This document shows, piece after piece, positions 59,681-64,000 of a stretch of 64,000 nucleotides of DNA. Origin of the DNA: Bacillus sp. NP157 (GTDB lineage Bacteria; Pseudomonadota; Gammaproteobacteria; Xanthomonadales; Rhodanobacteraceae); NCBI GenBank assembly GCA_018889975.1, contig CP076546.1, forward strand, positions 2,790,001 through 2,854,000. Reading direction: 5' to 3'. The notes beneath the pieces were generated by a model that saw only the letters and a program-made list of their open reading frames with translations, did not search any database and was not told the DNA's origin. A program made the translations under genes and the position numbers. Within the stretch, counting starts at the first letter, position 1. Each line of letters opens with the position of its first letter.

Positions 59681-61006
59681 ATGCCGTTTCGTCCCACCTC
59701 CCTGCTTGCCTGCGCGCTTGCCGCCGCCCTTGCCGCCCCGTCCGCCTTCGCCGCGCCGCCCCCCAGGCCGCCCGTCGTCCACGTGGACCCTGAGTCGGCG
59801 AAGATTCCCGCCGAGCGGGTCAAGCAAACCATCGAAGATTACAAACGCTGGCTGGATTCCGCGGAAGCCCGTGACGCCGCGCCTGCCATCGTCACCGCGG
59901 TGATCGTGGACGACAAGGTCGTCTATGAGCGCGCCATCGGCTATGCCAACGCGAAGACCAAGGAGCCGGCGACGCCGGAGACGGTGTTCCGCCTGGCCTC
60001 GCTGTCCAAGGCCTTCGCCACCGGCGTCACCGCGGTGCTGGTGAAGAACGGCTTCCTCAGCTGGGATACCAAGCTGGTCGACACCCTGCCCTACTTCAAG
60101 CTGAAGGACATGCAGGCCGCCCAACAGGCGACCGTGCGCGACATCCTCGGCCAGCGCCTCGGGCTGCCGCGGAACACCTACGACGCGATGCTCGAGGCGG
60201 ATGCCCCCTACGAGGAGCTGGTGCGCAAGCTCGACGAGGTCGACCTCTCGTGCAAGGTCGGGGCCTGCTATGGCTACCAGAACGTCGCCTTCAGCATGAT
60301 CGGCGACGTGATCTACGCCACCACCGGCGATTATTTCTTCCGCCAGGTGGAACGGCGTATTTTCGCGCCGCTGGGCATGACCACCGCCAGCTATGGCCGT
60401 GACGCCCTGGAAGCCAGCAAGAGCTGGGCGCGCCCGCATCGTGGCAGCCCGCATAACTGGGTGCCGTACGAGCCCAACGACAGTTACTACCGCGTCGCCC
60501 CGGCAGCCGGTGTCAATGCCAGCCTGCGCGACATGGAGCAGTGGCTGATGGCGCAGATGGGCGGTCGCCCCGACGTGCTGCCCACGCCGCTGCTGGACGT
60601 GCTGCATGCCCCGGGCGTACCCACGCCTTCCGAAGAGCATTCCCTGCCCTGGCGGCGCGCCCGGGTGACCGACGCGCACTATGCGCTGGGCTGGCGCGTC
60701 TTCACCTACGCCAACGAAGACCTCGTCTACCACGCAGGCGCCGTGTCGGGTTACCGCACGATGATCGGCTTCTTCCCGAAATACCACGCGGGCGTGGTGA
60801 CGATGTGGAATGCGGCCGCGCCGATTCCCGCCGGCCTGATGCCGATGGTGTTCGATGACCTGCTGGGCCTGCCGCACCAGGATTGGGCGGGGGTGGAAGG
60901 CAGCGTGCATACGGCACCGGCGGCGAAGGCGGCGCCGGCCAGGAAGAAGGCGGCGGCTGCGCCGGCAAAGAAAAAGGCCGCCGTGGTGAAAAAGAAGAAG
61001 AAGTAA
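59681..61006 (+). CDS. Secreted serine hydrolase (class C beta-lactamase fold) with Lys/Ala tail
   Basis: A 441-residue protein with a signal peptide (about 1-24). Active-site SxxK is SLSK in RLASLSKAFATG; the YxN box is YQN in CYGYQN; a third HAGAVSG box is near residue 357 (HxG in place of KTG). These suggest a DD-peptidase or esterase of the beta-lactamase family. The last 28 residues are AAKAAPARKKAAAAPAKK-type repeats ending KKKKK. Divergent from the MFS gene; a bidirectional terminator follows. Confidence 0.9.
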   Translation: MPFRPTSLLACALAAALAAPSAFAAPPPRPPVVHVDPESAKIPAERVKQTIEDYKRWLDSAEARDAAPAIVTAVIVDDKVVYERAIGYANAKTKEPATPETVFRLASLSKAFATGVTAVLVKNGFLSWDTKLVDTLPYFKLKDMQAAQQATVRDILGQRLGLPRNTYDAMLEADAPYEELVRKLDEVDLSCKVGACYGYQNVAFSMIGDVIYATTGDYFFRQVERRIFAPLGMTTASYGRDALEASKSWARPHRGSPHNWVPYEPNDSYYRVAPAAGVNASLRDMEQWLMAQMGGRPDVLPTPLLDVLHAPGVPTPSEEHSLPWRRARVTDAHYALGWRVFTYANEDLVYHAGAVSGYRTMIGFFPKYHAGVVTMWNAAAPIPAGLMPMVFDDLLGLPHQDWAGVEGSVHTAPAAKAAPARKKAAAAPAKKKAAVVKKKKK

Positions 61007-62217: not shown

Positions 62218-62366
62218 GGCGGTGGGACCGGACTCCGAAAGAACGCGCGCCCCCTGATGGCTTACGCGTGGGACCCCCCGTCCCTACGCAGCGCGTGGCT
62301 GAAAGGTAACCGCATTGGAGGCGTGAATCCAGCCTGCCGGTCTAGGAGCTTTTCCAGAAATGAATA

Positions 62367-62427
62367 ACCCCGGCAGGACCGGGGTCAAGTTTCGAAGTGG
62401 CTCCCCGCGCTGGGCACCGCGGGGAGC
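62367..62427 (-). terminator. Candidate terminators downstream of metJ-H1 fusion
   Basis: Two stems: ACCCCGG-CAGGA-CCGGGGT (62367-62385) and GCTCCCCGCG...CGCGGGGAGC (62400-62427). The first is followed by TTATTCATTT on the minus strand, a weak T tract. Most of 62218-62360 shows nothing recognisable. Confidence 0.5.
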
Positions 62428-62468
62428 TAATTCGCAAACAGCTTTCTTATTGGAAGGTAAAGCCTGGC

Positions 62469-63116
62469 TTACGCCTTCGGTGCCTTCGGTGCCTTGGCAG
62501 CCTTCGGTGCCTTCACGGCCTTGGGGGCCTTGGCAGCCTTGGTTGCGCGAACAACCTTCGCAGCGGCGACCTTCTTCGAGGCGGCCTTGCGCGGAGCAGC
62601 CTTGCGGGCAGTCTTCTTGGCAGCGACCTTCTTCGCCGGTGCCTTACGGACAGCCTTCTTCACCGCCTTCTTCGCGGCAACCTTACGGGCCGGCGACTTA
62701 CGGGCGGTCTTCTTTACCGCAGCCTTGCGGGCGGTCTTCTTCGCCGCGACCTTACGGGCCGGCGACTTGCGTGCAGTCTTCTTGGCCGGCGCCTTGCGGG
62801 CGGCGGTCTTCTTCACGGTGGACTTCTTGGTCGCCTTTTTGGCGGCCGACTTCTTGGCAGTGGCTTTCTTGGCAGTGGCCATGGTTCGTCTCAGCTCCTC
62901 ATCAGTTGGCAGTGGTTGCCCAGTAAAAGCATGCAGGAACGCTTCAACCAGCAAATCGCTGTTCGTCGCGTGCCTTAAATTGTTCACCTGTCGGCGGGTG
63001 CGTTCATCGGAAAGCAGGCGGAGCACATGCAGCGGAATCGATACCGTGATCTTGCGTACCGCTCCCGCTTTTGAACCGTGCTCCACATACGGCCGGATGA
63101 ATTTCTCAGTTTCCAT
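62469..63116 (-). CDS. metJ: MetJ methionine repressor fused to a histone-H1-like Lys/Ala tail
   Basis: A 215-residue protein. Residues 1-77 align with E. coli Met[21 protein letters not shown] (ribbon strand) and [18 protein letters not shown], then [16 protein letters not shown]. The normal last 30 residues of MetJ are missing. Instead residues 79-215 are KK/AKK/ARK repeats, including two copies of [16 protein letters not shown], as in histone-H1-like or AlgP-type proteins. A GAGGAG lies 12 bases before an internal ATG (62882), so a 137-residue tail-only protein could also be made. MetJ represses methionine genes with SAM; the tail should bind DNA non-specifically. Start at 63116 aligns with MetJ. 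Confidence 0.93.
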
Positions 63117-63493
63117 TCCCGGGTTCCCCGTCAATTGACGCAAAAGCTATTCCTGAACAAATCCGCTGTCAATAAATTTTGGCTCTAAATTGAAGACGTT
63201 GCGGATACATCACATGCGACCCGGCGGTCCGTCGAGATAACCGACGCCGGTTTTTCGACCACGCCATTCCGTTAATTCGATCACTCCGCGAATCACGCAC
63301 TCCATTCGACCCATTCAAAAAACACCTTAAATAAAGGCATTTCCTGAACGCATTCGGATTTTCGGTATGCCGATGCGTGTCGTCGTCCCGACCTCGCGCG
63401 GCGTGCCGGCGAACGCCCGCGAGGGGTGTCCGCGGGGATGAACGGAACTCAACTGACGGCGAAAAAAATTTTCCGGAAAGGGTCGTCGCGGAC

Positions 63494-63522
63494 AAAAAAA
63501 TGCCGGTCGAGGACGACCGGCA
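63494..63522 (-). terminator. Intrinsic terminator of gcvH
   Basis: TGCCGGTCG (63501-63509) and CGACCGGCA (63514-63522) with AGGA loop, with seven A at 63494-63500 giving a T tract on the minus strand. The rest of 63117-63548 has no gene; AGACGT at 63194 resembles part of a MetJ box (AGACGTCT) but stands alone. Confidence 0.9.
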
Positions 63523-63548
63523 CCAGGTTCGAACGATTTGGGCGACCG

Positions 63549-63953
63549 TCAGTGATCTTCGTTTTCGATCAGTTCGGCGTAGTCATCCGGACCGAGCAGG
63601 TCGTCGACTTCGCTCCGGTTGGTGTACTTGATCTTGAAGATCCAGCCATCGCCGTAGGCATCGGCATTGATCGTTTCCGGCGCGTCGGAGAGTTTCTCGT
63701 TCACCTCGACGACTTCGCCCGAGACCGGCGAATAGATGTCGGACGCGGCCTTCACCGATTCCACCACGGCGACGCCCTTGCCCTCGCCCGCTTCCACGTC
63801 GCTACCCACTTCCGGCAGCTCGACGTAGACCAGGTCGCCCAGCGCTTCCTGTGCGTGCTGGGAAATGCCGACGGTGGCGGTGCCGTCGTCGTTGATGCGC
63901 ACCCACTCGTGGGACTTCAGGAAATACAGATCGCCGGGGATTTCGCTGCTCAT
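63549..63953 (-). CDS. gcvH: Glycine cleavage system H protein
   Basis: A 134-residue lipoyl carrier of the glycine cleavage complex. Lipoylation Lys68 is in [36 protein letters not shown] and DGWIFKIK are conserved. Start at [10 protein letters not shown], the Met aligned with the family. It is encoded alone here; gcvT and gcvP are not visible in the window. Confidence 0.96.
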
Positions 63954-64000
63954 GGGGGGCTTGCCTCGCAATGGGTTGGACGGTGGTGACCACCAGATTG

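Follow-up and report, generated by a model that had tools for sequence, protein, structure and literature searches.

The methionine repressor MetJ is a textbook case, and proteins commonly use lysine-rich tails to bind DNA of any sequence. In the window, the whole 64,000-nucleotide stretch of Bacillus sp. NP157 contig CP076546.1 that was analyzed, a MetJ domain runs in frame and without a stop codon into a long Lys/Ala-rich tail. Does this locus, here called metJ-H1, encode one tailed repressor, a repressor gene and a nucleoid-protein gene that share a frame, or both kinds of product from one mRNA?

The fused gene

The MetJ family profile PF01340 is matched by residues 5–88 of the encoded protein (E 1.4e-37 to 2.5e-37; 128.1 bits against a cut-off of 25), the NCBIfam MetJ equivalog NF003622 is matched above its cut-off (133.6 against 110), and residues 5–77 align without gaps with E. 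coli MetJ structures such as 1cma (E 7.7e-33). No other MetJ match was found in the one-contig, 4.88-Mb genome to which the window belongs. The tail, which begins at residue 79, comprises 137 residues, including 47 Ala, 44 Lys, and 10 Arg, and has a pI of about 12. The E. coli-type C-terminal residues 79–104 of MetJ are absent from the window protein. The first-pass annotation had assigned the N-terminal 77 residues to MetJ and had described a Lys/Ala-rich tail in the same frame, and both assignments are borne out by the profile and structure matches and by the uninterrupted frame.

Across the 121 family tails, Lys and Ala account for 36% and 35% of the residues, Phe, Trp, or Tyr occurs in none, and Asp or Glu occurs in four. 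Basic, low-complexity Lys/Ala/Pro repeats devoid of aromatic residues, as expected of an H1-like protein, are present in the tail. The HC2 profile (PF07382) scores 26–27 bits against it (maximum 27.3), under the cut-off of 40, and the NCBIfam H1-like profile scores 23.5, under the cut-off of 80; the name "H1-like" is used here solely on grounds of composition and partial profile similarity. Ala/Lys-rich stretches resembling the tail also occur at two other places in the window genome (G000:C1:1817453–1817776 and C1:4550507–4550812), and a beta-lactamase-fold serine hydrolase (PF00144) at 59681–61006 (+) of the window has a short Ala/Lys tail of its own, AAPARKKAAAAPAKKKAAVVKKKKK.

The features of the locus are listed in Table 1. 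The promoter is conserved in 121 of 121 family sequences as TTGACA, a spacer of 16–18 nucleotides, and a T(A/T)nnTT-type −10 element.

Table 1. Positions in the window of metJ-H1, its parts, and its neighbors.
Feature	Position	Strand	Remarks
metJ-H1 gene, MetJ and H1-like tail	62469..63116	-	215 aa, 23.1 kDa, pI 11.8; ATG at 63116, TAA at 62469
MetJ ribbon-helix-helix domain, residues 1–77	62886..63116	-	PF01340, NCBIfam equivalog, E. coli MetJ structures
Codon-frozen element: last 15 MetJ codons, internal ATG, and first tail codons	62865..62930	-	Synonymous identity; non-coding copies in f3 and f6
GAGGAG, putative Shine-Dalgarno site of the internal start	62895..62900	-	Strongest anti-SD pairing in the stretch scanned
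Putative internal start codon ATG, codon 79 of the fusion	62880..62882	-	Kept in 121 of 122 distinct f1 sequences
H1-like tail as a separate ORF from the internal ATG, predicted second product	62472..62882	-	137 aa, 14.1 kDa
Promoter TTGACA (63172–63167), 17-nt spacer, TAGCTT (63149–63144)	63144..63172	-	
Two G+C hairpins 3' of the stop codon, likely intrinsic terminator with a weak T tract	62355..62430	-	Sequence reading; sub-threshold hairpin match in the Rfam scan
gcvH, upstream neighbor of metJ-H1	63549..63971	-	TIGR00527; lies 5' of the H1 gene in MetJ-less families as well

Distribution of fused and unfused MetJ

In the following, f1 denotes the Rhodanobacteraceae, g1 the genus of the window, and f2–f12 the other families of the order. 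MetJ was found in 145 of 398 genomes of the order, 125 of them from f1 and 20 from f8, f9, and f12. No f1 genome was seen among the 20 unmatched genomes listed (a further 233 were unmatched), and one poor f1 assembly, G399 (80% complete), is without a MetJ match. Complete in-frame fusions of 118–387 residues were read at 124 of 127 f1 loci. The remaining three are L050, which has a stop in the MetJ part, L023, whose sequence ends with its contig inside the junction codon, and L099, which is fused through a different junction. In L050 (G390, genus g1), a TGA codon lies inside the MetJ part, and the junction element, the ATG, and the tail are intact; the TGA may be a mutation or an assembly error.

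The fusion is conserved across the Rhodanobacteraceae. A sequencing frameshift, which the first-pass annotation had named as one way in which its reading could fail, and chance read-through are both ruled out by the same in-frame join at 124 of 127 loci; the comparison with other members of the family that it had proposed thus finds the tail in place, in L099 as well. A stop codon at the junction was found in none of the 126 f1 loci that include the junction (L023 is cut there), so that translation begun at MetJ has to yield the fusion. In 89 of 121 f1 sequences, codon 77 is CGA, which a single transition would turn into TGA, and it is a stop in none.

The 20 unfused MetJ proteins of f8, f9, and f12 are 79–97 residues long, and no Lys-rich ORF was found in their flanks of up to 3 kb. 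Since these proteins are also short, MetJ can be short without having a tail, and the E. coli-type C-terminus was not taken as defining in this order. The earlier description of a C-terminus replaced by the tail is therefore correct in that the E. coli-type end is missing, but the exchange is not a simple one. A class-wide draw of 369 genomes contained MetJ in five, and the three outside f1 have open frames of 112–118 residues. Among 80 loci from the genome collection, 13 (L160–L172) have an H1-like tail, one of them cut by a contig end, and the other 67, judged by their lengths only, extend 25–39 residues beyond the LP motif. No MetJ of this shape was found in the literature searched, which covered few subscription papers, in line with the annotation, which knew of no described example.

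A candidate internal start at the junction

Across 23 genera, 121 distinct f1 sequences have an ATG directly after the MetJ part or one codon later; the total of 122 in Table 1 includes L099 and excludes L050, which has the ATG, and L023, which ends in that codon. Same-codon use between genera is 0.86 in codons 63–77 versus 0.50 in codons 5–62, and this excess was matched by none of 100,000 permutations of positions. Unfused MetJ genes have no such effect in codons 63–77 compared with elsewhere (0.45 versus 0.45 for 67 loci and 0.37 versus 0.46 for 20 loci). We propose that codons 63–77 are frozen because they also act as leader and ribosome-binding site for the H1-like protein.

Between −230 and +119 relative to the internal ATG, the anti-SD sequence pairs best with GAGGAG, which begins 18 nt before the ATG, and the mean pairing is −8.0 kcal/mol at this site versus −4.0 kcal/mol at the MetJ start. 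GAGGAG is separated from the ATG by 12 nt in 113 of 121 sequences and by 9 nt in the other 8, a long spacing that counts against an internal start. Stretches of 40 nt around the internal ATG are among the most weakly folded of the gene (mean −3.2 to −4.6 kcal/mol), but similarly weak folding occurs at a few other places in metJ-H1, and the frozen stretch extends 48 nt upstream of the ATG, beyond the needs of an ordinary ribosome site; both points count against a nested gene. Within these 48 nt, stops occur in both other frames in 115 of 121 fused genes, a count given without a chance expectation.

A riboswitch or known RNA at the junction was also considered. Rfam yielded no match above the gathering threshold in 62300–63600, folds of single strands across the junction were not more stable than shuffles (z 0.80, −0.59, and 0.07), and RNAalifold found no fold common to 33 leaders and a weak shared structure (−7.8 kcal/mol) in the 23 fused leaders. 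This candidate was dropped after these results.

The junction looks like a second translation start. A conserved internal start codon, a ribosome site, and codon constraint, all of which a nested gene requires, are present, and the internal start very probably makes the H1-like protein separately in the Rhodanobacteraceae. The second way in which the first-pass annotation could have failed, a tail that is a separate ORF in relatives with the full-length protein not made, is thus partly borne out: the tail has its own gene in MetJ-less sister families and very probably its own start here, but no stop interrupts the junction in 126 loci.

Leaders and stand-alone H1-like genes in families lacking MetJ

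An 86-base junction query was searched in 40 genomes of other families. It gave some match in 12, with long matches in f3 (two genomes) and f6 (one genome), families in which the search of 398 genomes found no MetJ; the other matches were short, and several were plain Lys-codon matches. In f3, the junction-like bases immediately precede the ATG of a separate H1-like gene 3' of gcvH, whose promoter reads TTGACA-17-TAGTTT. In f6, the leader and the H1 gene are present about 1.7 kb from gcvH. A Lys-rich ORF follows gcvH in all six f2 genomes checked, and four of the five f2 leaders sought were recovered with ACTGACGAGGA before the ATG, the fifth reading GACGAGGAGC. The f4 leader is similar but more diverged; of four f4 genomes, G041 has the H1-like gene near gcvH, G033 has it at a greater distance, and G003 and G015 lack it within the gcvH flanks. 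In the genomes read from f5, f7, f8, f9, f10, f11, and f12, a search beside gcvH turned up no Lys-rich ORF. In MetJ-less families, the H1 gene follows promoters like that of metJ-H1.

A DNA profile of the fused genes gave convincing matches to the leader part only, at six loci in four genomes (E ≤4.3e-5; best shuffled control 0.29), and no metJ remnant upstream of the leader in the MetJ-less families was detected by this profile. Judging from these matches, related DNA serves as a non-coding leader where MetJ is not encoded. Because the profile matched the leader part and not the rest of metJ, it does not decide whether the leader is a MetJ relic or an older H1 leader. We lean toward a relic, since the same bases encode MetJ residues common to distant MetJ proteins and since the distance from TTGACA to ATG is similar in both settings (288–297 among the f1 rows listed and 279–283 in f3). 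A 32-base exact pattern of the element, searched for a mobile or viral origin, had no match in viral_contigs.

A natural variant of the junction

Of 122 distinct fused sequences, all but L099 (G236, genus g17) keep the junction ATG; L099 has GTG instead. Its GAGGAG is broken, and it keeps 5 of 13 majority codons in codons 63–77 (median of the others, 1.0). Its upstream codons are as usual, with 36 of 57 majority matches (median of the others, 0.64), and its frame continues into a long tail despite the degraded internal start. The start and the codon constraint are thus lost together, as predicted, which supports a second start, and the retention of the fusion without a good internal start suggests that the fusion has a value of its own. 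This evidence comes from one genus only. A tail search of the L099 genome found no other H1 gene, but the same search also missed the known H1 gene of G014.

These results bear on two other accounts of the junction. In the first, the locus is in effect two genes, metJ and an H1-like gene, that no stop codon happens to separate; most of the output is H1-like protein from the internal start, the fusion is scarce or is quickly trimmed by proteases to plain MetJ, and the tail is irrelevant to repression. We regard this as improbable. The internal SD is far stronger than that of the MetJ start, a stand-alone H1-like gene exists in sister families, and MetJ of other families lacks the tail, all as such an account would have it; however, no junction stop has arisen in 126 loci though codon 77 is so often one transition away from one, and L099 is still fused despite its degraded internal start. 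The second account, to which we give still less credence, holds that the fusion is the sole product and that some other function, such as a DNA-binding site, a small-RNA target, or an overlapping short ORF, keeps the ATG and the frozen codons in place. The length of the frozen stretch beyond a usual ribosome site, the lack of an RNA fold common to all leaders, and the stops in both other frames would fit it, but related DNA directly precedes the ATG of stand-alone H1-like genes that lack the MetJ frame, and L099 has lost the ATG, the SD, and the frozen codons together.

Likely control of methionine genes by the MetJ part

When two tandem Met boxes were sought in the window genome with at most three mismatches allowed, seven matches came up, two of them overlapping in one array, versus two for the reversed pattern. 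One match is a three-box array (G000:C1:47695–47718) before metX, which encodes homoserine O-succinyltransferase MetX (NF006449). The Met-box test among methionine genes covered metX, which was matched in 39 of 41 genomes searched; 30 loci were read, 25 from f1 (23 g1, one g24, and one g19, with G399 included) and five from MetJ-less families. Tandem Met boxes adjoin the −35 element (TTGACA) of metX in 25 of 25 f1 loci and in none of the five MetJ-less loci, and for each of the 25, none of 200 shuffles of the same upstream DNA reached the match. The metX leader also matches the SAM riboswitch RF00162 in all 11 f1 loci tested (of the 25 in the set) and in all five MetJ-less loci. At metX (G000:C1:47695–47718 and L247, 1233–1409), three tandem Met boxes touching the −35 element are followed by the SAM-I riboswitch in the leader, which would place two different SAM sensors in series. 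In the literature searched, PMC4239095 was the sole find on MetJ, metX, and the SAM riboswitch together.

Tandem Met-box-like sites also occur before genes of TonB-dependent receptors (L242, G000:C1:324929, and L243, 1150255), which are possible additional MetJ targets. Upstream of metJ-H1 itself, 66 of 121 sequences, representing 20 genera, have a tandem box with at most four mismatches between −195 and −160; in g1, it was found in none of 21, the best having 6 mismatches of 16.

The residues K23, T25, and S54, which we take to have DNA-contact roles, are invariant across the family sequences. E39 and R42 of E. coli MetJ presumably lie near the SAM site; their equivalents are changed in 42 of 121 family sequences and in none of 21 from g1, where all residues that we take to be SAM contacts are kept. 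In the fused MetJ of g7, g9, g11, g18, and g22, the equivalents are Leu together with His, Tyr, or Glu, and SAM binding may be altered in these genera.

The available text of a proteomic study of Rhodanobacter R12 (PMC12146267; ISME J 2025) reports a putative repressor MetJ that rises with nitrate as four methionine enzymes fall, and gives no size for this MetJ. Suvorova et al. 2014 (PMC4239095), in the part at hand, describe MetJ in six gammaproteobacterial groups and methionine regulation by SamR and MetR in Xanthomonadales. The MetJ part of metJ-H1 looks functional, and it likely controls methionine genes. That MetJ has been converted into a nucleoid protein of general function and has given up the control of methionine genes is highly improbable: the SamR and MetR regulation described for Xanthomonadales (PMC4239095), the changed residues near the presumed SAM site, and the small number of tandem Met boxes in the genome are compatible with such a conversion, but the boxes at the −35 element of metX in all f1 loci versus none of the MetJ-less ones, the invariant K23, T25, and S54, and the R12 proteomic trend (PMC12146267) stand against it.

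Proposed mechanism and significance

We consider it probable that metJ-H1 is a nested gene, in which one promoter yields a SAM-dependent, tailed MetJ and a free H1-like protein from an internal start. A single sigma-70-type promoter would drive both products. Initiation at the first ATG would give MetJ carrying a disordered Lys/Ala tail, as no stop ends the MetJ part, and initiation at the internal ATG, with its stronger SD, would give the tail alone, which would be a small histone-H1-like protein of the nucleoid, free of MetJ. For this second protein, the last 15 MetJ codons would also supply the leader and ribosome-binding site. The MetJ part is predicted to bind SAM and tandem Met boxes and to repress metX at its −35 element, in series with the SAM riboswitch of the leader, and the tail most likely raises the repressor's affinity for DNA of any sequence. 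It may also change the search and residence time of the repressor and perhaps give it a nucleoid function, as the first-pass annotation proposed. We infer the existence of both products, SAM binding, repression, and the effect of the tail from the conserved features described above. It counts against this reading that no Met box was seen upstream of metJ-H1 itself in g1 and that the E39 and R42 equivalents are changed in some other genera.

A broader and more speculative possibility, which we hold only tentatively, is that the locus couples chromatin to metabolism. Each mRNA would yield free H1 and a SAM-gated, tailed repressor; the repressor would be held on bulk DNA, its search competing with free H1, so that SAM would tune both the methionine genes and the packing of the nucleoid, and the 3' end of metJ would be a dual-use code for protein and an ancient H1 leader.

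The locus offers a natural test of how non-specific affinity affects a sequence-specific repressor. It is also an apparently clean case of dual coding, in which the same 45 bases specify a conserved protein end and are the probable start signal of a second protein; sister families show the leader alone, and one genus shows the outcome of losing the start. As metX, the probable target, has a second SAM sensor in its riboswitch, layered SAM sensing can be tested.

Comparison with known systems

Like E. coli MetJ (PF01340, 1cma), metJ-H1 has a ribbon-helix-helix core through the LP(T/D)D motif and Met-box operators, and it is the single MetJ match of its genome. Unlike E. coli MetJ, it has a long H1-like tail and no E. 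coli C-terminal part, its 3' end is the probable leader of a second protein, and its putative target metX also has a SAM riboswitch.

The tail resembles AlgP of Pseudomonas and Hc2 of Chlamydia (PF07382) in its Lys/Ala-rich repeats of variable length. The C-terminal domain of AlgP is H1-like, and fragments of AlgP bind DNA, according to the text available from PMC9239181. Unlike AlgP and Hc2, the tail of metJ-H1 is attached to a sequence-specific repressor and scores below the HC2 and NCBIfam cut-offs.

PgFur, as described in the available text of PMC6613475, is likewise a regulator with an added basic, lysine-rich C-terminal tail. Removal of 13 residues from it gave a null-like phenotype, and the authors report an effect of the tail on general DNA binding (data not shown there) and none on binding to the hmu promoter (PMC6613475). 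The PgFur tail is about 13 residues long versus 137 in metJ-H1, the folds differ, and the same text mentions no nested start.

AerR (PMC6199135) and SpaO (PMC13059759), in the portions of these reports at hand, are examples of an in-frame internal start that yields long and short products from one gene, as we propose for metJ-H1. Unlike in those systems as described there, the predicted short product of metJ-H1 has stand-alone counterparts in sister families, whose leader DNA is related to the join.
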